44,614 bases of DNA from Candidatus Aquidulcis sp. GTDB lineage: Bacteria > Chloroflexota > Anaerolineae > UBA4142. The notes below the pieces were generated by a model that saw only the letters and a program-made list of their open reading frames with translations, was not told the DNA's origin and made no database searches. Position numbers and translations under genes: made by a program. The DNA is taken from NCBI GenBank assembly GCA_020723345.1, contig DYJA01000054.1:1-44614 (forward strand), in the 5' to 3' direction. Shown one piece after another: positions 28,194-43,491 of this stretch (the first letter of the stretch is position 1; every line of letters starts with the position of its first letter).

Positions 28194-29735
28194 TCACGGC
28201 GCGAACATCGGATTCGTCAGCCAAATCTGCGCGAGTAAAACGAGGATGAGCAAAACAAATGCCGGTATAAAATTGCGCCACGTTAGTTTGACAACCAATT
28301 TGTCCGCGCGGGTCGACGCGAGCGCGCGCGAAAATTCATCCGGCGCGCGCCAAAAGAGCGACAGCGGTTCAGTCGCGAACGCGCGCTTGAGACGCGGCAA
28401 GCGATTGCGCGTGAGCCGACCGTCTTCCCAGGTGTTGCCTTCGCGGTTCAAGCAATCCTCCGGCGGACAGCCGATCACGCGTACGTCCGTTGCCCCGGCT
28501 TGGATCACGCGCCCGACGATGTCGGGATGCGCCGCGCCGACGCACGGCAGCGCGACGACAATCGCGTCGCGCCGCGCGCGCGCGTTGTGCGCCGCGTGTC
28601 GTTCGCACGTCAACACGACGGGGCGACCCGGCTCGCGCTGCACGCGCGTCTCGAGCGCGCGGCAGATCGCCTCGGTCGTCAAATCGCCGAGCGTGATTGC
28701 GTCATCGTCGCACGCGCCGATACAGATGCCGCACGCCACACACAGATCAGGATTTTCCACCGCGATGAATTTGTGGGGCGCGCCGTCGGTGCGGGGCTGC
28801 ATCGTGATCGCGGTGTACGGACAATCGGTCGCGCAAACGGTACAGCCGGTGCAGCGCGCGGGATCGATCATGAGGCGCGGCAGTTTTTTCTGCGGCGGCA
28901 GCCAGGGCAAAATCCCAGCCGCGACGATGATCGCGACGAGCGCGAGCCAGACCCAGGGCGAATTCCACGTCGCGTTGAAAGCGATGGGCAGGTAGAACAA
29001 ATAGAGCAAGTCAATCGGAAATGCGCCGGGCGCAGTCGAAAGACTTGCTTTTGGCAACATGCCGACCGGCGCGATGATCGACACGACCACCAGGACGACC
29101 GTCAGACCGATGAGCCAGTAATTGTCGAGCAGCCACTTGGGACGCCGCAAGCGCGCCAAGTGAATCCACAGCGCAACGCCGATGAGCGCGGAAAACGCGA
29201 GGTGCGCCAGCAAAACGATCATGATGAAAATCCAATCGTTCCCTTTCTGCGCGGCGGCGATCAAATTCTCGATGGACAATGCGCCGCGCCGCAAAATATT
29301 GTCGAACGATTGGGTGATCGCCAGCGCGCGTTCGTCCCAGATCAGCCAGTAGCCGGTGATCCCGGCGAGCCAGATCGGCGCAATCATCACGACGCCGGAC
29401 ACCCACGCGAGCCAGCGCGCGCCGCGCAGACGATTTTGGACGAGCAGACGCAAGCCGTGAATCAGACTGACGATCACGAGCGCGTCAGACGCGTAGCGAT
29501 GCGCGGCGCGCACAATGCGCGCGAGGAATTGCTGTTCAATGCGCGCGACGAACAGGTACGACGCGTCAAAGCCAACTTGGAAAAAGAGAACGAGGAATAG
29601 ACCGGTAATCGAAACTACACCGAGCAAAAAAACCGCGATTTGCCCGGTGTAGTAAAACGGATTCAGTTGCGGCGCGCCGACCAGCCAATTGACCGGGCGC
29701 TCCAGCGCGAGCAAGGCGCGTTCGAGCCGACGCAT
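28194..29735 (-). CDS. Cytochrome b-ferredoxin-MvhD-like fusion protein
   Basis: A 513-residue membrane protein joining three electron-transfer modules. Residues 1-275 are a cytochrome b with two bis-histidine hemes (H79/H93 and H178/H192, both pairs 14 apart). Residues about 285-345 carry two [4Fe-4S] motifs (C295-x2-C-x2-C-x3-C305 and C332-x2-C-x2-C-x3-C342). Residues about 370-445 resemble the MvhD/FrhD iron-sulfur subunit of hydrogenase-heterodisulfide reductase complexes, with cysteines at 377, 398, 423 and 428 (CPPEDCLNREGN). A last helix is at 488-506. The gene starts 3 bases after the cytochrome c stop and ends the respiratory run. It may link a soluble low-potential donor to the quinone pool. 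Confidence 0.85.
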   Translation of the reverse strand: MRRLERALLALERPVNWLVGAPQLNPFYYTGQIAVFLLGVVSITGLFLVLFFQVGFDASYLFVARIEQQFLARIVRAAHRYASDALVIVSLIHGLRLLVQNRLRGARWLAWVSGVVMIAPIWLAGITGYWLIWDERALAITQSFDNILRRGALSIENLIAAAQKGNDWIFIMIVLLAHLAFSALIGVALWIHLARLRRPKWLLDNYWLIGLTVVLVVVSIIAPVGMLPKASLSTAPGAFPIDLLYLFYLPIAFNATWNSPWVWLALVAIIVAAGILPWLPPQKKLPRLMIDPARCTGCTVCATDCPYTAITMQPRTDGAPHKFIAVENPDLCVACGICIGACDDDAITLGDLTTEAICRALETRVQREPGRPVVLTCERHAAHNARARRDAIVVALPCVGAAHPDIVGRVIQAGATDVRVIGCPPEDCLNREGNTWEDGRLTRNRLPRLKRAFATEPLSLFWRAPDEFSRALASTRADKLVVKLTWRNFIPAFVLLILVLLAQIWLTNPMFAP

Positions 29736-29738
29736 GTT

Positions 29739-30872
29739 TTACTTTTGCCACGCGCGCAAGAACGCGATCGCGTCCGCGAGTTGCTGCTCGCTCAACTTGC
29801 CGGTGAAACTACGCATCGCCGTGCCGTCTCTGCCCGCGAAAAGCAAGCGCAATACTTCGGCATTCGTGCTTTTCTGAATGAACTCGTTCGGTTTCAGTTT
29901 GCGCCCGACGCCGCCTTGACCTTCCGAACCGTGACAGCCGGAGCACGCGTCCTTGTATACTTTTTGCCCATTCTTTTCGTCGCCGATGGGCCAGTTGTTA
30001 CGCAGCGCGCCGAGATCGGTCAACGCTTGCTTGAGTTGATCTTTCTCGATCTGCGAAATGATCGGATCAAAGCGCGCGGCGGCGGGACCGAACGCGAGCG
30101 GTTTCGCTTTCCGCAGATAGAACAACGCATCGGCGGAATCATTTTGGTTGACCGAAAAGAGCGCCGAGTCGAGCATATTGGCGACTGTCGTTGCCGGCGC
30201 GACGCGTTCGCCCTTGCGCCACGCGCCAATCAACGCGATCAAGTCGTCGACTTGGTTTGACGCGAGCACGCTGTTCCAAATCGGCATTCCTTTGGCGGGG
30301 CGTCCGTTCACGATGGTTTGACGGTACCAATCGTCGTTCATGTTTTTGAGACGCGTTGGATTGTTGAGCGACGGAGCCGATCCGCCCTTGCCTTCGTCGC
30401 CGTGGCAAATCGCGCACGAACCGGCGAAGAGCGTCGCGCCGCGCACCGCGCTGGGCTGCATCGCCGTCACGATTTCGGGCGCGGTCGGTTCCCACGCGCG
30501 CAAAAAGGAAACGATGCCGCGAATATCCTCGTTCGTGAGCGGACCGCCGTTGATCTGTCCCCACGCCGGCATTGTGGTATTCGGTCGCCCGGCGAGAATC
30601 GTCGCGAACAGTACTTCATCGGACGCGGTGGTCAGCAATTGTTTGCTGTTCAACACGTTGCCCGCGCCGCCTTCGCCGCGCGTGCCGTGACACGACGAGC
30701 AGTTGTCGACGTACAAAGTGCGACCGTGCGTCAGATGACTTTTTTGCGCTTGCTTGCTCGCCGCCGCAAGTCGATCCGACTCACTCAACCAGGCAAAGCC
30801 GGTCGCGATGACAAGCAACAACGTCGCAATCAAGCCAATCCAAACATATCGGTTATAGTTTTCGTTCTGCAT
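29739..30872 (-). CDS. Triheme membrane-anchored cytochrome c
   Basis: One N-terminal helix (YVWIGLIATLLLVIATGFAWL) anchors a periplasmic part with three CxxCH heme sites: CSSCHGTRGEGG, CAICHGDEGKGG and CSGCHGSEGQGG. Each lies in a class-I cytochrome c domain followed by a methionine-containing helix (for example TTMPAWGQ and KGMPIW). It sits 12 bases after the Rieske gene, so it probably acts as the cytochrome c1/f equivalent of this bc-type complex. GAGG is 9 bases before ATG 30872; ATG 30878 is possible but too close to it. Confidence 0.9.
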   Translation of the reverse strand: MQNENYNRYVWIGLIATLLLVIATGFAWLSESDRLAAASKQAQKSHLTHGRTLYVDNCSSCHGTRGEGGAGNVLNSKQLLTTASDEVLFATILAGRPNTTMPAWGQINGGPLTNEDIRGIVSFLRAWEPTAPEIVTAMQPSAVRGATLFAGSCAICHGDEGKGGSAPSLNNPTRLKNMNDDWYRQTIVNGRPAKGMPIWNSVLASNQVDDLIALIGAWRKGERVAPATTVANMLDSALFSVNQNDSADALFYLRKAKPLAFGPAAARFDPIISQIEKDQLKQALTDLGALRNNWPIGDEKNGQKVYKDACSGCHGSEGQGGVGRKLKPNEFIQKSTNAEVLRLLFAGRDGTAMRSFTGKLSEQQLADAIAFLRAWQK

Positions 30873-30883
30873 AATCATTTTCC

Positions 30884-31381
30884 TCACGCGCGCGTCGTCT
30901 GCTTGGGATCAAAGCGTTCACGTTGAATCGGACTCCCCGTGTCCACAAACACTTCGCCGCCTCGGATCGTGATCGGGAAAAGATCGAGCGGGCGCGGCGC
31001 AGGTCCGCCGACGAGGACGCCGGTCTTGTCGAAGATCGAGCCGTGACAGGGACAGTGAAATTGCTTTTCGCCTTCGACGTACGGCACCGTGCAGCCGAGG
31101 TGCGTGCATTTTTGCCACAGCGCCAAAAAACTACCATCGTCCAAGCGATAAAGATAGAATCGTCCGGCTTTGATCGCGGTGACACTGCCCGGCGCAAAAT
31201 CGGTCACTTTGCCCGCGCGCACGACTCCGCCAAAGCCGCTCGCGCTCACCGGTTGAATGAAACGCCAGAGCGCGGCGAGCGTCTGCGCCCCCAGGATCGT
31301 GAGCGAGCCAAGCCAAGCGAGTTGGAGAAATTGGCGGCGACTGAGACTATTTTTCTTCGATTGAGTGATCTGAATTGTCAT
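30884..31381 (-). CDS. petC: Rieske iron-sulfur protein
   Basis: The [2Fe-2S] subunit of a quinol-cytochrome c oxidoreductase. A twin-arginine-type signal/anchor (SRRQFLQLAWLGSLTILG) is followed by the head domain with CTHLGC and CPCHGS, giving two Cys and two His cluster ligands plus the extra disulfide cysteines. The ending is GPAPRPLDLFPI. GGAG lies 9 bases before ATG 31381. It is encoded between subunit IV and the triheme cytochrome c. Confidence 0.95.
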   Translation of the reverse strand: MTIQITQSKKNSLSRRQFLQLAWLGSLTILGAQTLAALWRFIQPVSASGFGGVVRAGKVTDFAPGSVTAIKAGRFYLYRLDDGSFLALWQKCTHLGCTVPYVEGEKQFHCPCHGSIFDKTGVLVGGPAPRPLDLFPITIRGGEVFVDTGSPIQRERFDPKQTTRA

Positions 31382-31398
31382 CGCGAGAATCTCCAATC

Positions 31399-32175
31399 TC
31401 AAAAGTTATTCAGCGGATTGTATCCGTCCGGCATGTCCCAGGGGAAAAACAATTTAAAGCCGGGACCGCGAAACAGAAATCCCGCGACGGTCAACACAAT
31501 CGCCGAAAACAAAAGCAGCGTGAAGAGCGCGAGCAGAATTTGGCGCGCCGTCGCCTTCTGCCCGGAGGTTCGCGCGACGACGAACACCGGGATCGCGACG
31601 ATTGCCGCCATGATCAGCGCGGGAATCACGGCTTGAGCGAGAAGCGGCGGCAGCGCGTCGCGCAGCAACTCGCGCACTGGAAACGCGTTGTCGAGCACGA
31701 CATAGACCGGCATCACGCTCAGCGCGTAGATCGCGGTGAACCACACGACGCGTTTTTCGCGCGCGCCGCCGAACCACTTGCCCGCGCCGACGCGGCTGCG
31801 GTCGAGGTACGGGACCGCCAGCAGGAACAAGACGGCGAGCGTCGGAATCAAGACGCCGGCAACCGTCGGGTGCATGTGTTCGAGCAGTTCCTGCAAGCCC
31901 ATAAAATACCACGGCGCTTTGGCGGGATCGGTCGTCACGAGCGGATTCGCCAATTCTTCGAGCGGCGCGTTTTTGAGCAGCGCGACGATCATCAACAGCG
32001 CGCTCACGCCCAGCGCGATCACCAATTCAAGCAGCGCGACGACGGGAAACGCGAACACGGTGTTATCGGGTCCCTTGTCCGCCATCGTCGTCGGCGCGCC
32101 GCGCACGAGTTCGACGAGTGAGTAGGTTTTCATACTGCTCTGGGCAAAGGGTTGTTCAGTTTTTACTTCAGCCAT
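31399..32175 (-). CDS. petD: Cytochrome b subunit IV-like (C-terminal half of cytochrome b)
   Basis: A 258-residue membrane protein matching cytochrome b helices E-H, plus additional C-terminal helices. The quinol-oxidation-site motif is KAPWYFMGLQELLEH, with PWY in place of the usual PEWY. That form is known from several bacterial b6-type complexes. GAGG precedes ATG 32175, eight bases after the cytochrome b6 stop. It forms the split cytochrome b together with the upstream gene. Confidence 0.9.
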   Translation of the reverse strand: MAEVKTEQPFAQSSMKTYSLVELVRGAPTTMADKGPDNTVFAFPVVALLELVIALGVSALLMIVALLKNAPLEELANPLVTTDPAKAPWYFMGLQELLEHMHPTVAGVLIPTLAVLFLLAVPYLDRSRVGAGKWFGGAREKRVVWFTAIYALSVMPVYVVLDNAFPVRELLRDALPPLLAQAVIPALIMAAIVAIPVFVVARTSGQKATARQILLALFTLLLFSAIVLTVAGFLFRGPGFKLFFPWDMPDGYNPLNNF

Positions 32176-32182
32176 ATCAACC

Positions 32183-32905
32183 TCATGTCTCATTTGCCGC
32201 AAGTCCGCCGTCCTTGCGCACGCGCCAGATGTGGAGCGCGATCAACAACGCGAGGAACGCGGGAATGACCATGATGTGCAACGCGTAAAAGCGCGTCAGC
32301 GCGTCCTGCCCCACTTCGGGTCCGCCGAGCAGAATCTTTTTGATCGTCGCGCCCATCAGCGGTTCGTACGACGCGATGCTCGTGCCGACGGTGATCGCCC
32401 AGAACGAAAGTTGATCCCAGGGCAAGAGATAGCCGGTGAAACTCGCGCCGAGCGTGAGGATCAGCAACACGACGCCGACGCCCCAGTTGAATTCGCGCGG
32501 CGGTTTGTACGCGCCGGTATAAAACACGCGCGCCATGTGCAGGACCGCCGCCAGCACCATCAGGTGCGCGCCCCAGCGATGCAGATTGCGGAAGAGTTGC
32601 CCAAACGGAACCTGGGTCTGCAAAATGACAATGTCGCCGTACGAGCGCTCGACCGACGGGACGTAGTAAAACATCAGCAGCGTGCCGGTGATCGCCAAGG
32701 TCACGAACAAAAACACCGTGATCACTCCGAGTCCGAACGAATAAGTCACCTTGAGACTTTTGAGATTGACCTTGACCGGGTGCAGGTGAAAGAAAATATT
32801 CGTCGTCATCACCAGCGAGCGGTCGAGCGGATTATCGGGAAACCCGTGCCGGAAAAAGGATCGCCAAACGCGGGAACGGGTGACTGCATCAACAAGTGAA
32901 GCCAT
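32183..32905 (-). CDS. petB: Cytochrome b6-type subunit
   Basis: The N-terminal four-helix half of cytochrome b, 240 residues. Heme ligands are H109/H123 and H210/H225; the second pair is separated by 14 residues as in b6, not 13 as in mitochondrial cytochrome b. Other marks are the GTLLMFYYVPS and GASFTGYLLPWDQLSFWA segments. CGGAG is eight bases before the ATG. It starts the b6-IV-Rieske-cytochrome c unit. Confidence 0.94.
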   Translation of the reverse strand: MASLVDAVTRSRVWRSFFRHGFPDNPLDRSLVMTTNIFFHLHPVKVNLKSLKVTYSFGLGVITVFLFVTLAITGTLLMFYYVPSVERSYGDIVILQTQVPFGQLFRNLHRWGAHLMVLAAVLHMARVFYTGAYKPPREFNWGVGVVLLILTLGASFTGYLLPWDQLSFWAITVGTSIASYEPLMGATIKKILLGGPEVGQDALTRFYALHIMVIPAFLALLIALHIWRVRKDGGLAANET

Positions 32906-32987: not shown

Positions 32988-34979
32988 TTACTGATAACTG
33001 ATTACTTCTTTGAACCGAAACGCTTCCATCGTGATCGCGTTGGTGGGACAGCGTTCGGCGCAAAGCGCGCAGCGCGTACACGCCTCATCGTCCTTGATCA
33101 TCGCGGCGATGGGCACATCAGTTTTGTGCGCGTCGATTACGCGCGCGAGCGTTTCATCGCCGGTCATTTGATCGAGGCGCACGATTTTCAAACAGTTCCA
33201 CGGGCACACGTCCACACAGCCGTTGCACAGAATACATTTTTCCGCGTCGAAGATCGTGTTGACGCTGCACTCGAGACAGCGCGCGCCTTGATCGACGGCT
33301 TGCGCTTCCGAATAGCCGAGTTCGATCACCGATGTTCCGGTGCGGCGATCCACCGGCAGTCCGGGCACTTTGGCGCGGCTGCGTTTCGTCCAATCCGCCG
33401 GCATCGCGTGCTCCGACAGTTCCGTCCACTCGGTAGTCACCGTCGTCGTCAGCGCGCGACTCTGGATCTGCTGCTCGATTCCAAGCGCGGCGAGGTGTCC
33501 ATCGCGAACCGCGTGAATGATCAGGCGCGGACCGTACGCGACATCGCCGCCGGCGAACACATCGGGCGCGGACGTTTGCCCGGTCGCCGGATTGATTTCG
33601 ACGAGACCGCGCGGCGAAAGTTTCACGTCGCTCGCGCCGCCTAGCGCGGCGAGATCGGCGGCTTGACCGATGGCGAGGATCACGGTGTCACATTCCAGCA
33701 CGCGTTCGGTGCCGGGTTTGAACTTTGGATTGAACCGGCGATTTTCGTCGAACACCGACGCGACCTCGATCACTTCCAAGCCGGTGACCTTTTCGTTTTT
33801 GCCGATGATGCGATTCGGTCCCAGGCGCGGCTGCATCTGAATGCCTTCTTCGAGCGCTTCTTCGATCTCAAAGCGCGACGCCGGCATTTCTTCCCACGAT
33901 TCGAGCGCGATCATTTTCACGTCCGCGACGCCAAGCCGCAGCGCGGTGCGCGCGACATCGAGCGCGGTCTTGACGCTTTCTTCTGCTTCTTCGGCGCGCG
34001 CTTCGGTGTCGCCGAGCGCGGCTTTTTGCGCCGCCGTCGCTTGACCGAGACGCAACGCGGTACGCGCGGCATCCATCGCGACGTCGCCGCCGCCGACGAC
34101 GATCACGCGCTTGCCCAGCGTCACTTTGTAGCCGAGGTTGTAGTTGAGCAACAGATCGACCGCGTTGATCACTCCGTCGAGATCCGCGCCTTCGACGCTC
34201 AACGCGCGACCGCGCATCAAGCCCAGACCCAGGTACACCGCGTCGTGCGTCCGGCGAATTTCCGCGAGCGCGATATCTTTGCCGACGCGCGTGTTGAAGT
34301 GAATCGTCACGCCGAGATCGAGGATGGATTGAATTTCCAAATCCATCGCTTGCTGATCGATGCGGTACACCGGCACGCCGTAACGCAACATGCCGCCAGT
34401 CTTGGGACCCGCTTCGTAAATCGTCACCTGATGCCCCAGCCGCGCGAGATCGTGCGCCGTCGCGAGGGACGAAGGACCCGCGCCGATAACCGCGACTAGG
34501 CCGCGTTTGCGTCCCGATGTCGCCGCGAGCGCGTCCAAATTCTCGCGCGACCAGCGCGCCGGAGAGTAGTCGGATAGTCGCGTAGTCGGATAGTCGGTTG
34601 GTCGTAATGCGTCCGCGACTTTTTGACTACTTGACGATTCGACTACGCGACTACGCCCCGGCAAATGCTGCGCCGCTTCGGGACCAAAGCGTTCGGTGAG
34701 CACACGCTTGAGCGGGCGAATCGCCACCGGCTCGAAATCGGGACCGATCGCGCTGCGCCGGCACATCTTTTCGCACGGCGCGCCGCAGATCCGTCCGCAC
34801 GTCGTCGAAAGCGGATTCGGCGCGTGCGCGATCTTGTAACCGGTGCCCAAGTCGCCGCGCGCAATCGCGATGACGTACGCGCGCGCGTCGGTCAACACGG
34901 GACACGCGGCTTGGCATTTCACCATCGCGCGCCAATGCTCGATATCGGGGACGATGACGTTGAATTTTGCAACAGCCAT
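32988..34979 (-). CDS. GltD-like FAD/NAD(P) oxidoreductase with N- and C-terminal iron-sulfur regions
   Basis: This 663-residue protein resembles the small subunit of glutamate synthase and related flavoproteins. Its N-terminal cysteine cluster (CQAACPV, then CGRICGAPCEKMC) binds [4Fe-4S]. FAD binding is at VIGAGPSSLATAHDLARLGH and NAD(P) binding at VIVVGGGDVAMDAARTALRLG. The C-terminal ferredoxin-like part has CILCNGCVDVC and CTRCALCAERC. No large glutamate synthase subunit is nearby; within a respiratory run it may pass electrons between NAD(P)H, ferredoxin and the quinone pool. Two oddities: a repeat element encodes about 30 residues near 109-138, and an ARTALRLG block is duplicated around an acidic insert. 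Confidence 0.87.
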   Translation of the reverse strand: MAVAKFNVIVPDIEHWRAMVKCQAACPVLTDARAYVIAIARGDLGTGYKIAHAPNPLSTTCGRICGAPCEKMCRRSAIGPDFEPVAIRPLKRVLTERFGPEAAQHLPGRSRVVESSSSQKVADALRPTDYPTTRLSDYSPARWSRENLDALAATSGRKRGLVAVIGAGPSSLATAHDLARLGHQVTIYEAGPKTGGMLRYGVPVYRIDQQAMDLEIQSILDLGVTIHFNTRVGKDIALAEIRRTHDAVYLGLGLMRGRALSVEGADLDGVINAVDLLLNYNLGYKVTLGKRVIVVGGGDVAMDAARTALRLGQATAAQKAALGDTEARAEEAEESVKTALDVARTALRLGVADVKMIALESWEEMPASRFEIEEALEEGIQMQPRLGPNRIIGKNEKVTGLEVIEVASVFDENRRFNPKFKPGTERVLECDTVILAIGQAADLAALGGASDVKLSPRGLVEINPATGQTSAPDVFAGGDVAYGPRLIIHAVRDGHLAALGIEQQIQSRALTTTVTTEWTELSEHAMPADWTKRSRAKVPGLPVDRRTGTSVIELGYSEAQAVDQGARCLECSVNTIFDAEKCILCNGCVDVCPWNCLKIVRLDQMTGDETLARVIDAHKTDVPIAAMIKDDEACTRCALCAERCPTNAITMEAFRFKEVISYQ
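34575..34653. repeat. In-frame palindromic element inside the GltD-like gene
   Basis: TAGTCGCGTAGTCG (34575-34588) pairs perfectly with CGACTACGCGACTA (34640-34653); weaker pairing extends on both sides of the cores. The protein frame stays open and reads a Ser/Asp/Tyr-rich stretch, VVESSSSQKVADAL then TDYPTTRLSDYSP, between two conserved parts of the protein. Confidence 0.87.
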
Positions 34980-35062: not shown

Positions 35063-35473
35063 TCATTTTTCCGACAACAGATACGCGATCAAATCCGCGA
35101 TTTCTTGTGGGGACAAATCCTCGCTCCACTTTTGGTACATATCGCCTTTGTTGTAATTCTCGACGACGTACGCATCGGGTTTGAAGAGGGATTCCTTGAG
35201 GTACTCTTCCGCGCTCATGCCGGGCACGCGCGTCGCCGCGCGAGTACCGGTGCCTTTGGTGTACGGCGCTTTTTCCGCCTTGCCTTCCGATTCATCGTAC
35301 TTGTGGCAAGTCACGCACCCTTCCGTTGATTTCTTGCCGAGCGTGCTTTTGTTGTACAACGCCTTGCCGCGCGCGACATCGCCGGGACCCGCCGCGCCGC
35401 CACCGCCGCCGCACGCGGACAAAACGATCGCGCCAATCGCGAGTAGGATGATTGCAAGAATCAATTTACGCAT
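35063..35473 (-). CDS. Monoheme cytochrome c lipoprotein
   Basis: A 136-residue exported cytochrome c. The lipobox LSACGGG places the lipid-anchored cysteine near residue 21. The single heme site is CVTCHKYD and the probable axial methionine is in YNKGDMYQKW. It ends with a typical DLIAYLLSEK helix. AGGAG is eight bases before the ATG. It is next to oxidase subunit I and may carry electrons between the bc-type complex and the oxidase. Confidence 0.9.
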   Translation of the reverse strand: MRKLILAIILLAIGAIVLSACGGGGGAAGPGDVARGKALYNKSTLGKKSTEGCVTCHKYDESEGKAEKAPYTKGTGTRAATRVPGMSAEEYLKESLFKPDAYVVENYNKGDMYQKWSEDLSPQEIADLIAYLLSEK

Positions 35474-35571: not shown

Positions 35572-37212
35572 TTACTTCCAAACGACAAAACCGGGCGAGA
35601 AGAATTGGATCTGGCTGATCAACTGAATGAGAATGGGACCGTACGCGACGAGGATCAGCACGACCGTACCAACTAACCAGGGCTGCCAATTGTTCAGCCA
35701 CGCCGGAATCGTTTCTTGATGCAACGGTTCGGCAACCGGCATCTCGACTGTCTCGGTCTGTTTGTTCAAGACGGTCTTGAGCATGACGACGACGAACAAG
35801 AGAACCGACACGAACAGGATCATGCCGCCGATGCCGACCTGCAAGCGCGGGAACAGCCAATCCGCCGCGCCGTAGTTATCGTTCGCGACGCCGAGCATCG
35901 TGCGGCGCGGCGCGTCGAGCAAGCCCAGGCGATGCAGCCCGTTCGAGAAAATGATCATCCCGACGAACCACACCCACGCCTGCGCGATTGCCGCTTTCGC
36001 GCCCCACAATTTCTTGCCAGTGAGATGCGGCACCAGCCAATACAAAACGCCGATGAAGGTGAGCGTCACGCCGCTGCCGACGGTGAGATGAAAGTGACCA
36101 GGAATCCACGCGGTATTGTGAACGACCAGGTTGACATCGTACGACGCGTTGACCATGCCGCCGATCCCGCCGAACGCAAAGATGATCATCGCGAGCGTCT
36201 GCGCGGTGAACGAGGGTTCGTTCCACGGCAAGTTGCGAATCCACATCAGCAAACCTTTGCCGCCGCGCGCGCGCCCGCCGTTTTCTAGTGAGGCAATGAC
36301 GTTGAACGCGGTCAACAAACTGGGGAAAAACACCGCAAAAGTCAAAACCGCATGGACATACTTCCAACCGGCGGAAAGACCGGGATCGACGAACTGATGA
36401 TGCAGCCCAATCGGCGTCGAAAGCAGCAGGAACAACCAGAATGCCAAGCGCGCGAGTTGTTCGCTGAACAGTTTGCCCCCGGCTTGCTTGGGCATCATTC
36501 CGTACCAAGAAATGTACGCGGGCAGCAACCAAAAGTACACCAGCGGGTGACCGGTGAACCAGAAGAGCGTGCGCGACAACTGCGCGTCAATGCCGCCCAC
36601 CAAACCGAGCGACCAGGGCAGAATCAAGACGAGGATTTCGGACGCGATGCCGAGCGTGCAGATTTGCCACAGCACCATCGTGATGAGCGATGCGAACGCG
36701 AGGAACGGCGTCGTCGCGCCTTTGTTGTCTTTGCGCCACGCCCACCACGTCGTCAGCATACTCCAACCGCTCATCCAACTGCCGACGACGACGAGCGTCA
36801 AACCGAGATAGTAGTACCACGGCGCTTGCAACGGCGGATACATCGTGTACAGCACCGAAGCAAGATTGAGCAGCAACGGCACCGCCGCCATCAACAAGCC
36901 GACGACCATCACGCTGAACGCCGCCCAACTCAGTTTAGGGAACGCCAAGCCGCGGTTCAAACTCTTGGCGACGATCAGCGTCAAAAAGCCCGTGATGAAA
37001 AACGTCGTCCACACCAACGCGTTGAGCACGCCGTGCAAAGTCAGTCCTTGATAGTACGACTGCAGACCGACCGATTGCAGAGCGGGGTAGAGATTGATCC
37101 CCATGTGCTCCAACCCTTGGAGCGGACCAAAAAGTGTACCGACTACTAGCGCGAGGATGGCAACCAAGACATGCCAACCCGCGATTTTCTTTTCGACTGC
37201 GAAAGCGTTCAT
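35572..37212 (-). CDS. ba3-type (B-family) cytochrome c oxidase subunit I
   Basis: The catalytic heme-copper subunit, about 12-13 helices, 546 residues. The active-site helix [21 protein letters not shown] carries the Cu-B histidine and the cross-linked tyrosine, HHQF gives further Cu-B ligands, and [13 protein letters not shown] holds the heme ligands; [10 protein letters not shown] gives the low-spin heme histidine. It lacks the D-channel style of A-family enzymes and fits the B family (Thermus ba3). GGAG lies four bases before the ATG. It follows the heme O synthase gene in a full oxidase operon without subunit III, as usual for this type. Confidence 0.93.
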
Positions 37213-37262: not shown

Positions 37263-38156
37263 CTAGAATAGGGTCGCGCAGTAAATCGCCAGCAAGACCA
37301 AGCCGAGGTAGATGTTGGAACATTTGAAAAGATGGATGGCGTGGGCTTGGGGTTGCCGCATCAACCGCGCGGAATGCTGCGCTAACCACAACGTGGCGAT
37401 GCCGACGGGCGCGAGATAGAGCCAACCGAGTTTGGGATCGACGCTCAACAACAACGCGGCGATGGCGGTAGCGGCGGCGTGCAGAACGATCCATCGCGCC
37501 GTCGCGCGCGCGTTCGTCACGATCGGCAGCATCGGAATGCCCGCGCTCGCGTAATCGTCGCGATGCGCTTGCGCCAGACTCCAAAAGTGCACCGGCGTCC
37601 ACACAAAGACCAACAGCGCGAGCGCCACGGCAGTCGGGTGCGACCAGTCGCCGGCTGCCGCGCTGCCGCTCAACACCGTGCAACTGCCCGCCGCGCCGCC
37701 GATCACGATGTTGAGAATCGTGCGCGGTTTGAGCCACATCGTGTACACGCCGACATAGATCAGCGCGCCCAGCGCGACAAACAACGCGAGCCACGGATTG
37801 ACCGCCAACGCGATGCCGAAGGCGAGAACGATCATGCCCGTGCTCAATCCGAGCACGATGTGCGCGTGGGCTGAAGATTGAGTCGTCAGCAACCGCCCGC
37901 GCGTCCGGCGCATCCGCGTGTCTTGCTCGCGCTCCAAGTACTGATTGATCGCCGACGCGCCGGCAGAAGAGAGTGTGCCGGTCACCACCAATAAAATCAG
38001 ATGCTGGATCGCCAGCCGCCCGCCGCTTGCCAACAACGCGCCGCCGAGCGATGCCAGCACGAGCAATCCCACGCTGCGTAGTTTGAACAATTGGATGAGC
38101 GCGCTCAGACGCGGCAGAGCGACGCTGTTTGGCACGCGCGCGGTGGTTGTGTTCAT
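37263..38156 (-). CDS. ctaB: Heme O synthase (protoheme farnesyltransferase)
   Basis: A UbiA-family membrane prenyltransferase that attaches a farnesyl group to heme B. The Asp-rich motif is NQYLEREQDTRMRRTRGR, with the second conserved region VFVWTPVHFWSLA...RDDYASAGIPMLP. Nine or so helices, 297 residues, as expected. ATG 38156 lies two bases after the subunit II stop; the frame continues upstream to 38609 but that is a shadow of subunit II. Supplies heme for the oxidase of the same operon. No ctaA is seen. Confidence 0.95.
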   Translation of the reverse strand: MNTTTARVPNSVALPRLSALIQLFKLRSVGLLVLASLGGALLASGGRLAIQHLILLVVTGTLSSAGASAINQYLEREQDTRMRRTRGRLLTTQSSAHAHIVLGLSTGMIVLAFGIALAVNPWLALFVALGALIYVGVYTMWLKPRTILNIVIGGAAGSCTVLSGSAAAGDWSHPTAVALALLVFVWTPVHFWSLAQAHRDDYASAGIPMLPIVTNARATARWIVLHAAATAIAALLLSVDPKLGWLYLAPVGIATLWLAQHSARLMRQPQAHAIHLFKCSNIYLGLVLLAIYCATLF

Positions 38157-38158
38157 GG

Positions 38159-38635
38159 CTACTTGACGGTGAGCGTACCGAACATGTTTTGATGTCCGAC
38201 GCCGCAGTACTCCGTGCAGACAAAGTCGTACGTGCCGGGTTGATTGAACGTCGCGGTCATCTTGCTGACCTGACCGGGCAGAACCTGCACGTTGATGTTC
38301 GTCCCTTCGAGTTTGAACCCGTGTTGAACATCCGCGCTCGTCACGTAAAAAGTCACGGTCGAGCCAACCGGGATTTCGATCTTGTCCGGACGGAATTTCC
38401 AGGGGTTGGCTTCCGCGCGGACGTAAACCTCGTACTTTTTCGGCGCGAGTTGGCGCACACCCGGATTTGAGAAATTGCCGGACTGCGCGACAGTATTCGG
38501 ATTGACCAGCGCTTCCGGCACCGGCACCTGCACGCCGAGCATAAAGCCCGCCACGCCGACGGTGATGGAGATCACTGCCAACACCGCGATGCTGAGTCCG
38601 ATCCACCATTTTTCGTACTGATGTACTTGAATCAT
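38159..38635 (-). CDS. ba3-type cytochrome c oxidase subunit II
   Basis: One N-terminal helix (WWIGLSIAVLAVISITVG) and a cupredoxin domain that holds the dinuclear CuA centre: H in DVQHGF and the C-x3-C loop CTEYCGVGHQNM. This 158-residue form with one anchor helix matches B-family subunit II. GAGGGGGAC precedes ATG 38635, and the start overlaps the subunit IIa stop (ATGA). Confidence 0.94.
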   Translation of the reverse strand: MIQVHQYEKWWIGLSIAVLAVISITVGVAGFMLGVQVPVPEALVNPNTVAQSGNFSNPGVRQLAPKKYEVYVRAEANPWKFRPDKIEIPVGSTVTFYVTSADVQHGFKLEGTNINVQVLPGQVSKMTATFNQPGTYDFVCTEYCGVGHQNMFGTLTVK

Positions 38636-38754
38636 CGCGTTGTCCCCCTCTCCATCAAAGTCAAAAAGACCCACGACCACAGGGCAACGAGCGTCACCAA
38701 ATAGATCAGCACGATCGTCAATGCCCCTTTCGGTTGTTCTTCATTTTGCGACAT
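38632..38754 (-). CDS. Oxidase subunit IIa (CbaD-like) single-helix protein
   Basis: A 40-residue protein, MSQNEEQPKGALTIVLIY then one hydrophobic helix ending WVFLTLMERG. Its size, EQPKGAL start and position just before subunit II match subunit IIa of ba3-type oxidases, which supplies the missing second helix of subunit II. AAGGAGGAG lies just upstream of ATG 38754. The stop overlaps the subunit II ATG by four bases. Confidence 0.87.
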   Translation of the reverse strand: MSQNEEQPKGALTIVLIYLVTLVALWSWVFLTLMERGTTR

Positions 38755-38853: not shown

Positions 38854-39321
38854 TTACATTCCTTGCTCGCGAATTTCCACTTGAACGTTGATTTCGCCTG
38901 ACTTGGCGAAGACCAACGTCAGCGGCAGTTTGACGCCGTTGTTAAATTCAACTTTCTTGTCGATGCACATGATGTGCAACCCGCCGACTTTGAGTTCCAC
39001 TTGACCATTGGCGGGAATTTCGATCGTGCCGCCGGTCACCGGGCGCATGCCCATCGTGCCATTCGACATTTGGTACGACTCGTGCAGTTCCACCGTGGTG
39101 CACGCGCTCGACCGCGCGGCAGTCAACTTGTCCGCTGCCGCGCCGGTGTTGCGAATCACCATGTAAAACGCGCCGGCTTGCGCGATCTTTGGCGAAGGCC
39201 GTCCCCACATCCCTTCGACTGCGATTTTCGGCGCGGGCGCCAGGGTGGGAGTTGGCGTCGCAGTCGCGCACGCAGCCAGTACCAGCACACCCATAAGCAC
39301 GCAAAACACAGTCAGTCTCAT
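38854..39321 (-). CDS. PCu(A)C-type copper chaperone lipoprotein
   Basis: A 155-residue exported protein of the DUF461 family that delivers Cu(I) to the CuA site. The lipobox is VLAACATA. Copper ligands are visible in HESYQM...GMRPV and, after the usual spacing, GGLHIMCI (pattern H-xn-M-x21-H-x-M). GAGGTGA precedes the ATG. It lies between sco-like genes and the oxidase genes, as expected for oxidase assembly. Confidence 0.92.
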   Translation of the reverse strand: MRLTVFCVLMGVLVLAACATATPTPTLAPAPKIAVEGMWGRPSPKIAQAGAFYMVIRNTGAAADKLTAARSSACTTVELHESYQMSNGTMGMRPVTGGTIEIPANGQVELKVGGLHIMCIDKKVEFNNGVKLPLTLVFAKSGEINVQVEIREQGM

Positions 39322-39365: not shown

Positions 39366-40082
39366 TCACTTTCGCAACAAATATTGCAAATCAGACGCCA
39401 TGTCCTCGGCGGGAGTACCAAAAGGAAAAACGAGTCGCAAATAACCGTTCCGATCGATAACCATCACCGTCGCCGTGTGATCCACCAAATAGCCGAGCGC
39501 GGAATCGCTGTCGTGTTTTTCGTAGTAGATGCCGTAGTACGTCGCCACCTGCGCGGTCTCGTCGGGCGTGCCGCGCAAACCGAGAAACGTCGAGCTAAAG
39601 TGAACGACGTAATCGGCGAGCACCGGGATCGTGTCGCGTTCGGGGTCGACCGTGATCATCAAGACTTGGACCTGATCGGCATCCCTGCCCAGGAGTTTGC
39701 GCGCTTGAGCAAGTTCCGCAAGTGTGGTTGGACACACATCCGGGCAGATCGTGTATCCAAAGTACAGCAGGACGATCTTGCCGCGCAAATCGCTCAACGC
39801 GACGCGTTGTCCGACGTGGCTCATCAACGAAAAATCTTGCGCGGGCAACGGCGATTGAAGAATCGCGCCGTGAAAGGTGTGCGGCGTCAGCCAGCGTCCG
39901 ACGAGCAACACCGCCGCGCCGAGCAAAATCATTCCGACGAGGATCGCGCCGAGAATACATCGCTTGTCATTTCGAGCGGAGCGAGAAATCTCGTTATAGC
40001 GGCAACGAGATTTCTCGTCGCAAAAACCGCTCCTCGAAATGACATGCTGACCAGTTACGATTTTCAAATTATCTGTGTTCAT
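39366..40082 (-). CDS. Sco1/SenC-type copper chaperone with repeat-derived N terminus
   Basis: A thioredoxin-fold protein that matures the CuA centre. The CPDVCPTT motif, DPERDT and DHTATVMVID histidine region are present; a membrane anchor (about residues 43-64) precedes the domain. The first 40 or so codons are made of two repeat elements: ACACAGAT units give MNTDN, and a TCATTTCGAG palindrome gives EISRSARNDK. The only internal ATG, at 39932, would cut the anchor helix to about 12 residues, so either the repeats now supply the start or an unusual codon is used. No ribosome site is clear before 40082. Confidence 0.85.
   Translation of the reverse strand: MNTDNLKIVTGQHVISRSGFCDEKSRCRYNEISRSARNDKRCILGAILVGMILLGAAVLLVGRWLTPHTFHGAILQSPLPAQDFSLMSHVGQRVALSDLRGKIVLLYFGYTICPDVCPTTLAELAQARKLLGRDADQVQVLMITVDPERDTIPVLADYVVHFSSTFLGLRGTPDETAQVATYYGIYYEKHDSDSALGYLVDHTATVMVIDRNGYLRLVFPFGTPAEDMASDLQYLLRK
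39965..40044. repeat. Palindromic element at the sco 5' end
   Basis: TGTCATTTCGAG (39965-39976) pairs with CTCGAAATGACA (40033-40044); inside, CGAGAAATCTCGTT (39982-39995) pairs with AACGAGATTTCTCG (40004-40017). Both pairs are perfect. Same family as 44479-44580. Confidence 0.93.
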
Positions 40083-40111: not shown

Positions 40112-40795
40112 TTACGGCGGGGAACACAAAAACACATGCGCGGCTTCGTACGCGTAACGCGCCGCGCCGGCGCTGTTGCGCGCTTCGTCGACAATCAAGC
40201 GGAGATCGCGCAAGAGCCGGTCGGTTGCCGGCGTCGCGGTCTTGTAGTACGCGCGAACGATGCCCCAGCCATCCACGAGCACGAACAGCGGATCGAAAGT
40301 GAAGGTGTCATCGGGATTTGGCGCGTAGTAGAGATTGAATCCGCCGCCGAGCGCGTACTTGAGCCGCGTCGCGTCGCCGGTCGCGATGCGCCAGCGCGTC
40401 GCGTCTGCGCCGACCTGGGTCGCGTACGCGCGCAAGCGTTCCGGCGTGTCGCGCTCCGGATCGAACGAAATCGTCACGAGCGCGACCGGAATTTCGCCCG
40501 CGTCGATTTCGCCGAGACGATTTTGCAGCGCGCGCATGACCGCGCTCGTTTGCGGACACGCGCCGCCGCAATTCGCGTACGTGAAATTGTAAAGCACGAT
40601 GCGCCCGCGCAAATCTTCATTCGTGAGGCGCGCGCCATTTTGATCGACGAGGGAAAAGCCCGGCGCAAGTGTGATGCGCGGCAACACTTGAATCGGGCGC
40701 AGAGTCGTGAATGCCAAAATGCCGACGACGGGCAACGCAATCATCACGTAGAGCAGCCGGGTCGGTTTGAGGAGTGGAATGACTGACGCTGTCAT
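40112..40795 (-). CDS. Second Sco1/SenC-type protein
   Basis: A 227-residue membrane-anchored thioredoxin-fold protein with the CGGACPQT metal/thiol motif, SFDPERDTPERL and a hydrophobic anchor at about 14-32. It differs clearly from the other Sco, so the two are old paralogues and may serve different steps (thiol reduction versus copper transfer). It is the first gene of the respiratory run. The promoter at 40804-40832 places the transcript start within two bases of its ATG. Confidence 0.88.
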   Translation of the reverse strand: MTASVIPLLKPTRLLYVMIALPVVGILAFTTLRPIQVLPRITLAPGFSLVDQNGARLTNEDLRGRIVLYNFTYANCGGACPQTSAVMRALQNRLGEIDAGEIPVALVTISFDPERDTPERLRAYATQVGADATRWRIATGDATRLKYALGGGFNLYYAPNPDDTFTFDPLFVLVDGWGIVRAYYKTATPATDRLLRDLRLIVDEARNSAGAARYAYEAAHVFLCSPP

Positions 40796-40888: not shown

Positions 40889-41539
40889 TTAGCCAGAAGG
40901 ATTAATCCCGCGCCGCGCCGCCCAGGCGGCGGCTTGCGCGCGGCTGCGGAGGTGCAATTTGTCGAGGATCGAACGGAGGTGCGCTTTGACAGTGTGCGGC
41001 GAAAGCGCCAACTGCGCGGCGATTTCTTTGTTGCTCATGCCGCGCGCGACCAATTCCAGCACCTCGCGTTCGCGTGCGGAGAGTTCTTCTTCGTTGGGCG
41101 CGCCGGCGGTTTGCGGCGCGCGCGTCGCAAATTCGGTGAGCAGTTTCACCGCCATCGCCGGCGCGATGATCGCTTCACCGGCGCAGACGTGCTGAATCGC
41201 CGACACGACTTCAGCGCCGCTCATGTTTTTGAGCAAGTAGCCGCGCGCGCCGGCGCGAATCGCGTCGAACAGATCGCTTTCTTTTTCGGAAATCGTGAGC
41301 ATCAAGACGTGCATTTGCGGATGATGTTCGCGCAATCGCCGCGCCGCTTCAACGCCGCCGATGCCGGGCATGTTCACGTCCATCAGCACGACGTCCGGCT
41401 TGAATTCCCCGGCGCGCACGAGCGCGTCTTCGCCGCTCGCGACCGTGGCGACGACGCGCATCTCCGGCGCGTCGTTGAGCAGGCGCGCCAGTCCTTCGCG
41501 AAACAAAAAGTGATCGTCGGCAATCAGGATTTTGATCAT
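40889..41539 (-). CDS. NarL/LuxR-type response regulator
   Basis: A 216-residue regulator. The receiver domain (1-120) has the acidic pair ADDH, the phosphorylated Asp in VVLMDVNMPG (about residue 54), LMLTIS and the lysine of LLKNMS. The LuxR-type DNA-binding domain (about 150-210) has LSAREREVLELVARGMSNKEIAAQLALSPHTVKAHLRSIL. Its start overlaps the kinase stop (ATGA), so the pair is translationally coupled. Confidence 0.95.
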   Translation of the reverse strand: MIKILIADDHFLFREGLARLLNDAPEMRVVATVASGEDALVRAGEFKPDVVLMDVNMPGIGGVEAARRLREHHPQMHVLMLTISEKESDLFDAIRAGARGYLLKNMSGAEVVSAIQHVCAGEAIIAPAMAVKLLTEFATRAPQTAGAPNEEELSAREREVLELVARGMSNKEIAAQLALSPHTVKAHLRSILDKLHLRSRAQAAAWAARRGINPSG

Positions 41540-43491
41540 GATCTTTTCTTTGTCGGAATCACAACCGCGATCCGCGTGCCTTGCCCGGGTCCAGTTGCGA
41601 CGGTGAACACGCCGCCCAAACTTTGCGCGCGCTCGCGCATAATCGCCAAGCCGTGACTGTGATACGCGCGTCCTGCCTGACTCGCGTCGGGCAAACCGCG
41701 TCCGTCGTCGGTGATCGTCATTTCGATTTCCGTTGCGGACACACCCAGCGCGATCAGCACACTGCGCGCGTGGGCGTGCTTGCGAACATTCGTCAACGCC
41801 TCTTGCGCGATCCGCAACAACTGCATTCCGATTTCCGGCGCGACAGTCGCGTCGTTCGGTTCGGCAGAAAAGCGCGCGGCGATCCCAGATTGTCGCGCAA
41901 ACTCTTCGACGTACTCGGTAAGGCGCGCCGCAATCGCGCGGGGATCGTTGACGCTGAGCCGCAAGCCGTCAATCGCCTCGCGCACGTCGACGTACGCCGC
42001 GTGGATCGACTGACGCATTTCCGCGAGTTCGCGCAGCGTCGCGTCATTGCGCCCAGTCGCAATCAATCCATCGAGGCGTTCGGCTTGCAAACCGAGGCAA
42101 CTGAGCGTTTGCGCGAGTCCATCGTGAATTTCGCGCGACAGCCGATAGCGTTCTTCGAACAGCGCCATCTGTTCGACGCGCGCGTACAACTGCGCGTTCC
42201 GAATCGCCAGCGCGATTTGGTGCGCCATCGTCGCCAGCAATTCGATGTGATTGTCGGTGAACGTGCGCTGCCGTTTCGACGCGAGAAAGATCGCGCCAAA
42301 CGTTTCGTCTTCGATGATGAACGGCGCGGCGACGACGGAAAGTAATCCGTGTCCATTCGGCGCAACGCTCGACTGCACGACCGGCGCGCCGGTTTGACGC
42401 GCCGCTTGCGCGAGTTGCAAACCGAGTTGGAAACGCGCGTCGGCAAGATCATCACCCAGTTCGCGCCGCGCGCGGCACATCCACGTTTGCGTGGTGGGAT
42501 CGTACAAAAAGATGCCGCCCGATTGCGCTTCCCAGCCGCTCGCCGCGATGTCGAGCACTTGCGCCGCCAAGTCGTTGAGTTGCTGCGCGTTTTGCGAAGC
42601 GCGGTCGAGCGCGTGCAGCGTATCCACTTGACGCGTGCGTCGGCGCACGCTATCGAGCGCATTCGCGATCACGCCGCCGAGAATATTGAGCAGACGAATG
42701 TGATCTTCAGGTGGACCCTCGACCGTCGGAAAATACGCGGCGATGATCCCGACGCGTTCTTGTTCGCGCAGGATGGGCAAGCAGATGAGCGAACCGATCC
42801 CTTCCGCGCGCGCCTCGTCGTGCAAACCGACAAACAACGGACAATCGCTCGACGCCGGGGTTTTGAGTTTGGAACATTCGCGGCAGCGCGCGGCGGAAAC
42901 GCCTTGGTCGATTTTGACGCGCATCGCGCGGAGATAGCGATCGCTCAAGCCCCACGCCATATCGAGTTTCAGACGATTGCCGGTATCGTCGAACGTTACG
43001 ACGCTCGACGCGCGCGCGTCCGTCAATTCGACCGCGCCTTGCGCGGCAAGTTCGAGGACGGTTTCTTCGTGATTCGCGTCGCTGACGTGTTTGCCGAGTT
43101 CGTTGAGCGCGAGGAGTTTGCGATGATTGAATTCCAACTCGGCGAACGCCGCGCGCAATTCGCTTTCCACGCGTTCGCGGTGCGCGAGCGCGTTCGCCAG
43201 CGTCGTCAGCGCGAGCCACGCCGCGACGATGCCGGTGACGCCGTACACGGCGACTTCGACCGGCACGCGCCACGCCGGCGCGATGTGAACGAGGATACCG
43301 GAGAGGAAAATTTGGTGCAGCGCAACCAGGAAGAGAATCACGCCGACGGCGAGCCAGCGCCACGCAAACACGCGCGCGCTGGTGAATCGCGCGCGCGGAA
43401 AAGTGGCGAGTGCAGTCCCCGGCGGAATCTTCGAGTCCCCGGTCGAATTCTGGGCGGCGCCGGTTGAGGGCGCCATCGTCGGAATTCCCAT
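41536..43491 (-). CDS. NarX-like sensor histidine kinase with GAF domains
   Basis: Two N-terminal membrane helices (about 43-105) without a clear extracytoplasmic domain, then two GAF domains (about 130-290 and 295-440), a HisKA_3 dimerisation helix with phospho-acceptor in SREIHDGLAQTL, and an HATPase with EALTNVRKHAHA, DDGRGL and GLAIMRERA. A C-x2-C...C-x8-C-like cysteine set in the first GAF (CRECSKLKTPASSDC) could bind a metal or iron-sulfur cluster and sense redox state or oxygen; this is inference. The location beside the oxidase cluster suggests respiratory control. The promoter starts transcription on the ATG. Confidence 0.9.
   Translation of the reverse strand: MGIPTMAPSTGAAQNSTGDSKIPPGTALATFPRARFTSARVFAWRWLAVGVILFLVALHQIFLSGILVHIAPAWRVPVEVAVYGVTGIVAAWLALTTLANALAHRERVESELRAAFAELEFNHRKLLALNELGKHVSDANHEETVLELAAQGAVELTDARASSVVTFDDTGNRLKLDMAWGLSDRYLRAMRVKIDQGVSAARCRECSKLKTPASSDCPLFVGLHDEARAEGIGSLICLPILREQERVGIIAAYFPTVEGPPEDHIRLLNILGGVIANALDSVRRRTRQVDTLHALDRASQNAQQLNDLAAQVLDIAASGWEAQSGGIFLYDPTTQTWMCRARRELGDDLADARFQLGLQLAQAARQTGAPVVQSSVAPNGHGLLSVVAAPFIIEDETFGAIFLASKRQRTFTDNHIELLATMAHQIALAIRNAQLYARVEQMALFEERYRLSREIHDGLAQTLSCLGLQAERLDGLIATGRNDATLRELAEMRQSIHAAYVDVREAIDGLRLSVNDPRAIAARLTEYVEEFARQSGIAARFSAEPNDATVAPEIGMQLLRIAQEALTNVRKHAHARSVLIALGVSATEIEMTITDDGRGLPDASQAGRAYHSHGLAIMRERAQSLGGVFTVATGPGQGTRIAVVIPTKKRS

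Follow-up and report, generated by a model that had tools for sequence, protein, structure and literature searches.

A cytochrome b fusion gene in a ba3-type oxidase operon

The window analyzed here, a stretch of 44,614 nucleotides from Candidatus Aquidulcis sp. (Chloroflexota; contig DYJA01000054.1), carries on its reverse strand a long run of genes in the order COX2–CtaB–COX1–cytochrome c–GltD–b6–subunit IV–Rieske–trihaem cytochrome c–fusion. The oxidase at the head of the run is of the ba3 type: its B-family subunit I (35572–37212) matches the Thermus ba3 oxidase (PDB 1xme/1ehk, E about 9e-147) and has the active-site tyrosine in the motif GHPLVYF, and a CuA subunit II is encoded upstream (38159–38680; Pfam COX2, 3e-10). 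An oxidase composed in this way needs a cytochrome c-type electron donor. A UbiA-family haem O/A synthase (CtaB/CyoE, 37263–38165, start uncertain; Pfam UbiA, 4e-46) lies between the two subunit genes, and a PCu(A)C copper chaperone (38854–39321; Pfam PCuAC, 2e-30) and two SCO1/SenC proteins (39366–40082 and 40112–40795; Pfam 1e-43 and 1e-23) are encoded ahead of them. Still farther upstream, we observed genes for a GAF-domain histidine kinase (41536–43491) and a LuxR-type response regulator (40889–41539). A related kinase gene precedes the ba3 operon at four other loci (L056, L058, L061 and L068), and this recurrence indicates that the kinase may control the operon.

Downstream of subunit I, a gene for a mono-haem cytochrome c with a lipoprotein-like signal (35063–35473) is followed by a Rieske/b6 module comprising a GltD-like FAD/NAD(P) Fe-S flavoprotein (32988–34979), an ExtP-like cytochrome b6 (32183–32905), a subunit IV-like protein with five predicted TM helices and APWY at the Qo-motif position (31399–32202), a Rieske [2Fe-2S] protein (30884–31402; Pfam Rieske, 2e-13) and a membrane-anchored trihaem cytochrome c with three CXXCH motifs (29739–30887). 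The first-pass annotation had placed the fusion gene at the end of a b6-type operon; the b6 genes are indeed present, but they make up only the distal part of the longer run headed by the oxidase.

The fusion ORF (28194–29735, reverse strand) begins with ATG 3 bp downstream of the trihaem cytochrome c gene and encodes 513 amino acids, with Pfam matches over cut-off to Cytochrome_B (3e-11), Fer4 (9e-9, in two stretches), Fer4_7 (8e-8) and FlpD (7e-7). The cytochrome b part (residues 1–278; 28902–29735), delimited by Pfam, hhalign and AlphaFold2 (AF2), spans TM helices A–F and contains the haem ligand pairs H79/H178 (p-side) and H93/H192 (n-side), with the sides assigned by homology to cytochrome b/b6. 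These four histidines, invariant in 41/41 aligned family members, align onto the haem ligands of the b6 protein of the same operon (profile alignment, hhalign E 9e-17). The two-cluster ferredoxin part that follows (residues 287–350; 28686–28877) has eight cysteines (295, 298, 301, 305, 332, 335, 338 and 342) that are likewise invariant in all 41 members. Next comes an FlpD/MvhD-like domain (residues 372–445; 28401–28622) with C377, H380, C398, C423 and C428, recognized by Pfam and by aligning it with other FlpD domains encoded in this genome; the last TM helix then follows (residues 486–506; 28218–28280). The AF2 model (mean pLDDT 92, pTM 0.90) has seven TM helices, six of them in the cytochrome b part (26–50, 70–99, 107–131, 167–194, 205–221 and 260–278). 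In this model, helices A–D and E–F are ordered as in cytochrome b6 and subunit IV, ahead of the Fe-S and FlpD domains and the seventh helix. The Fe-S/FlpD part is predicted to be cytoplasmic and the C-terminus to lie outside, an assignment made mainly by cytochrome b homology, together with the positive-inside rule and AF2; loop charges broadly agree with a cytoplasmic location of the N-terminus and of the B–C, D–E and Fe-S segments. The combination of a cytochrome b, two [4Fe-4S] clusters and an MvhD-like part in a single ORF, as first proposed, was thus confirmed by Pfam, alignment and AF2, with the qualifications that the FlpD domain is divergent and that the seventh TM helix had gone unmentioned. 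We also observed that residue 29 (29649–29651), which aligns with Cys35 of b6f, the holder of the extra haem, is tyrosine in the window and histidine in most of the family; judged from the alignment, this residue could serve as an additional ligand close to the n-side haem.

Distribution of the family and its linkage to ba3 and eNOR reductases

Homologues of the fusion protein were found in 72 of 396 genomes of the class (about 18% of those sampled), with relatives 65–69% identical to the window protein within its family and about 29–55% identical across the class. Scanning genome contigs with the single window protein returned two close relatives only. In the phylum samples, which overlap the class sample and in which only strong single-sequence matches were counted, the family was seen in this class alone. 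The protein tree splits into two clades (support 100/100) according to the type of reductase encoded nearby—a ba3 O2 reductase or an NO-reducing eNOR. For 40 family members, we surveyed the surrounding DNA (up to 20 kb) on contigs of metagenome-assembled genomes. In the ba3 clade, which includes the window, a ba3-type subunit I gene lies upstream on the same strand at every one of the 18 independent loci whose upstream sequence reaches 5 kb or more (L054, L066 and L067, too short to score, were left out), and its tyrosine motif GHPLVYF was found wherever the stretch could be read. In the eNOR clade, 29–38% identical to the window protein, subunit I was present at 17 of the 19 loci whose upstream DNA extends over 3.7 kb or more. 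There, glutamine replaces the cross-link tyrosine (GHP[AS]QQ[VI]N, 15/15 readable loci)—the published eNOR signature in subunit I (PMC8756737)—and an upstream subunit II carries the CuA-type motifs CNEYC or CNEFC. As to the other two loci, L084 is short and L072 has a copper ATPase and no subunit I within 7.8 kb. Genes for copper-type P-ATPases are neighbours in this clade, joined at part of the loci by a DsbD_2 protein. We further noted that at L071 (4858–7130) and L083 the fusion gene and subunit I (and II) are encoded on different strands, so that the linkage survives rearrangement.

Outside Chloroflexota, where plasmid records were surveyed, we identified a family member on the alphaproteobacterial Defluviimonas plasmid NZ_CP156080.1, in the order CuA subunit II–eNOR subunit I–CyoE–SCO–fusion, with the TM helix and β-domain encoded by a separate 172-amino-acid gene directly downstream. 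RefSeq names this fusion protein 'cytochrome b N-terminal domain-containing protein'. On plasmids of Thermomicrobium and Thermus, subunit I of the eNOR-like operons has no fusion gene beside it; hence, the fusion is not obligatory for eNOR. A Haloarcula match was rejected as an eNOR since it carries the tyrosine motif. The survey of ba3 and eNOR loci therefore points to an association with CuA haem-copper reductases in which the protein lineage tracks the gas reduced. Linkage of homologues to a known complex of different function was what the first-pass annotation had itself set against its proposal, and the homologues are found consistently beside a ba3 O2 reductase or an eNOR.

Most homologues are longer than the window protein (680–830 amino acids) and, according to AF2 of L056 and the alignments, continue beyond the last TM helix with a β-rich domain of about 110 residues that is predicted to be periplasmic. 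This domain is missing from the window protein and its near relative L049, both of which end directly behind the helix and are thus truncated relative to the family; from the alignment, the seventh helix of the window protein is the stump of the larger periplasmic domain common to most homologues. In seven homologues of one subclade, the C-terminus also carries a mono-haem cytochrome c of the same family as the cytochrome c that the window encodes as a separate gene (36–45% identity, E 1e-20 to 1e-26)—a single event in the tree (7 rows, support 100/100). At cytochrome c-fused loci with upstream DNA, no gene separates the oxidase from the fusion gene. Among ba3-clade loci with neither the cytochrome c fusion nor an intervening b6 module, five of six have a free cytochrome c gene between COX1 and the fusion gene.

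The b6 module occurs in part of the ba3 clade only, at one of two positions: between the cytochrome c and fusion genes, as in the window, or after the fusion gene (L056 and L057). Orthologues of the window GltD are present in 5/5 genomes with the module and in 0/18 without it, which leaves the proposed role of this flavoprotein as donor without a counterpart in the wider family; GltD was accordingly rejected as a general partner of the fusion. Moreover, seven genomes (G079, G199, G123, G142, G230, G268 and G372), three of them at least 92% complete, have no whole PF00033 cytochrome b other than the fusion. Together, the GltD distribution and these genomes indicate that the function of the family needs neither GltD nor b6; we regard the b6 module as a passenger. 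Many members of the class without the fusion protein encode close b6 relatives as well.

The FlpD-like domain scores 29.7 bits against a curated cut-off of 22.3, and the profile matches 33/39 family members at E ≤ 0.01. The domain is nevertheless divergent in sequence: the canonical CCxxC set is absent, with T-C-E-R-H standing where canonical FlpD has CCNWC. C377, C398, C423 and C428 are kept in 21/21 ba3-clade rows and 14/20 eNOR-clade rows (35/41 in total); all four are lost jointly in one monophyletic eNOR subclade in which the haem and ferredoxin ligands are all retained. This joint loss suggests that they hold one shared cluster and that this cluster is dispensable, contrary to an essential MvhD cluster and arguing against an obligatory entry of the HdrA–MvhD type. 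Among the ORFs scanned in the operon of the window and in the genes that recur beside the family, none was recognized as HdrA-like, and HdrA as donor, also proposed initially, finds no support in the operons examined. As a separate observation, the genome of the window (G000) has seven other, canonical FlpD genes, three with an in-frame TGA (C34:7046–7411, L092; C34:18642–19010, L093; C40:17021–17392, L094). In L092 and L093, the TGA (read as U) falls on a Cys position of a GC-x-x-x-x-CH motif, which suggests a selenoprotein FlpD/MvhD in this bacterium.

Proposed electron delivery and its alternatives

Tentatively, the explanation we favour is that the fusion protein belongs to an undescribed transmembrane electron-delivery family dedicated to CuA-type ba3 (O2) and eNOR (NO) reductases. 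For the scheme that we infer—direction of electron flow, donor, acceptor and cofactor loading alike—a cytoplasmic carrier would reduce the [4Fe-4S] clusters, optionally via the FlpD-like cluster; electrons would then pass by way of the n-side haem b and the p-side haem b to the outer face, where they would reduce the mono-haem cytochrome c of the operon and, through it, CuA of the oxidase. In one subclade, the putative receiving cytochrome c is part of the same polypeptide; the window lineage has lost the periplasmic domain and encodes a Rieske/b6/GltD/trihaem-c complex in the same operon. The linkage to subunit I, the tree split by reductase type and the Defluviimonas linkage support this reading, as do the cytochrome c fusion, the invariant ligands, the topology and the need of the oxidase for a cytochrome c-type donor. 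Of the direct path that the first-pass annotation had drawn from a soluble low-potential donor to quinone, what stands is that a single polypeptide is able to connect a bis-haem cytochrome b with an Fe-S module in the cytoplasm; most of the wiring envisaged finds no support. Several findings count against delivery. The window copy lacks the periplasmic domain and only one subclade has a haem c of its own, so part of the family has no inbuilt exit to cytochrome c; additionally, a soluble donor gene is not conserved in the operons. Genomes without another cytochrome b have an NrfD protein, several of these on a contig with another oxidase, and only G372 (76% complete) lacks both; cytochrome c could therefore be reduced by another route. 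Finally, the nearby copper-assembly genes (SCO, PCuAC and Cu-ATPase) fit a role in maturation equally well.

That role is the main and strongest rival to electron delivery, if on balance unlikely: the fusion would do a job like that of CcoG or CrpH, sending electrons outward so that copper stays in the Cu(I) state, or SCO thiols in the reduced state, while CuA/CuB is being inserted. The vectorial electron transfer is the same as in the delivery scheme, and the acceptor differs. Besides SCO, PCuAC and haem O synthase in the window, SCO and CyoE adjoin the gene in Defluviimonas, and the Cu-type P-ATPase and DsbD_2 protein do so in the eNOR clade. The order of parts—TM, 2x[4Fe-4S], TM, periplasmic β-domain—is strikingly like that reported for the cupric reductase CcoG, whose two [4Fe-4S] clusters are accompanied by an Ig-like domain in the periplasm at the C-terminus (PMC7558416). 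CrpH, a PepSY_TM protein that supports haem-copper oxidases (HCOs) in a haem-dependent manner, is a precedent for a second such protein (PMC13038864). The layout of two clusters between TM parts with a β-domain at the C-terminus is found in L056; in the window copy the β-domain is absent. However, no homology of the β-domain or TM part to CcoG of the same class was detected (hhalign probability 0.7% for the β-domain) and the fusion family has no match to Pfam FixG_C; the ferredoxin parts alone align, and CcoG homology was looked for and not found outside them. One would not expect a copper reductase to carry a fused cytochrome c from the oxidase-donor family, and the alignments revealed no conserved outer-side Cys/Met metal site.

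We regard as improbable the quinone-linked complex suggested at the outset, in which a GltD- or HdrA-like donor would pass low-potential electrons through the Fe-S/FlpD part to the haems b and on to quinone. The cytochrome b fold with both haem sites is present, the GltD-like gene lies within the same gene run, and the cytochrome b residues R76, G128, Y129 and D134 are conserved, so that with many such residues retained quinone pockets may persist. On the other hand, neither a PEWY-type Qo motif (PPWY and PWY variants included) nor any xxWY was found in the alignment of 41 members. The region reads PIDLLYLFYLP in the window and D242-x-x-[YF]-L-x-F-L-P in the family, with D242, in the EF loop, conserved in 40/41 members. 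A Rieske gene occurs only at loci with the b6 module and is absent from most, which, together with the replaced motif, leaves quinone unsupported as a partner. Against it also stand the missing GltD orthologue in 18/18 genomes that have the family without the b6 module, the dispensable FlpD cluster, the lack of an equivalent to Cys35 of b6f (tyrosine or histidine in the family) and the constant partner itself: a CuA oxidase, fed by cytochrome c and not by quinol. Less probable still is a quinol-driven bifurcation powered by O2 or NO, in which one electron would go to the outer cytochrome c and ba3/eNOR and the other through the haems b and [4Fe-4S]/FlpD to a cytoplasmic low-potential reductant (ferredoxin or NAD(P)H). 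Very doubtful, and already disfavoured for the family, is a pairing of the fusion as second cytochrome b with the b6/subunit IV of the operon in an asymmetric complex III: the tight c3–fusion order of the window, with its 3-bp gap, and the grouping of the seven members that share this order (88/92) speak for it, but the b6 module is missing from many ba3-clade loci and all eNOR-clade loci, and the seven genomes in which the fusion is the sole whole PF00033 cytochrome b led us to reject the b6 heterodimer as a general rule.

Novelty and comparison with known systems

Each part of the fusion protein belongs to a known family; what appears to be new is how they are combined and the link of this combination to ba3 and eNOR reductases. 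No NCBIfam or Pfam model and no PDB chain covers the whole fusion, and a description was not found in the open-licence full-text literature—one elsewhere, e.g., in work on eNOR operons, is possible. Of the new type of quinone-linked or bifurcating complex that the first-pass annotation considered, the arrangement is undescribed in the literature and libraries searched, and the quinone link is not supported. As an unnamed companion of O2 and NO reductases, the protein occurs in about 18% of the sampled genomes of this class, and one alphaproteobacterial plasmid encodes a member as well. Were it to act as an electron donor, it would represent a new way into terminal reductases, one needing no bc1 complex of its own. 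As an assembly factor, it would join CcoG and CrpH as another kind of reductase that supports HCOs. Whichever holds, a gap would be closed in the understanding of how ba3 enzymes are supplied, and likewise eNORs, a little-studied source of N2O; the cytochrome c-fused homologue (L056 type, 801 amino acids) offers a single-polypeptide target for testing.

The anammox NAD(P) oxidoreductase-linked Rieske/cytochrome b complexes (Kuste4569–4574 and Kustd1480–1485) resemble the neighbouring module of the window, not the fusion. Their hallmarks of a b6-like protein, a five-TM subunit IV and an NAD(P) oxidoreductase (PMC12954380) are all present in the module, which further shares a Rieske protein and a multihaem cytochrome c; the latter is trihaem rather than hexa- or octahaem, and the module is located in a ba3 oxidase operon. 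In the anammox complexes, an N-terminal histidine of b6 is associated with a proposed extra haem b; among the operon b6 proteins, aligned with one another, FFHLH(P/S)VK is conserved and may include a counterpart. With the cytochrome b6/Rieske-cytochrome b superfamily (b6f, bc1 and ExtP-like b6), the fusion itself has in common the four-helix bis-haem core with the same four histidines; its profile matches PDB b6 at 1e-28, and helices E–F resemble subunit IV. It differs in the added C-terminal 2x[4Fe-4S], FlpD and TM parts (plus, in most homologues, the periplasmic domain), in having neither a PEWY/PWY motif nor a consistent Rieske partner, and in being tied to ba3/eNOR. As at the C-terminus of HdrA2, ferredoxin precedes FlpD, and NCBIfam NF040770 matches partially (9e-16), whereas the HdrA flavoprotein part is absent, the FlpD cysteine pattern is altered, the protein is membrane-bound and the cluster is lost in the eNOR subclade. 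CcoG/FixG offers the likeness in layout set out above, along with gene linkage to a haem-copper oxidase and a Cu-ATPase. In the fusion, however, the TM part is a bis-haem cytochrome b, the β-domain is not detectably FixG_C, an extra FlpD domain is present, ba3 or eNOR takes the place of cbb3, and one subclade carries its own cytochrome c.
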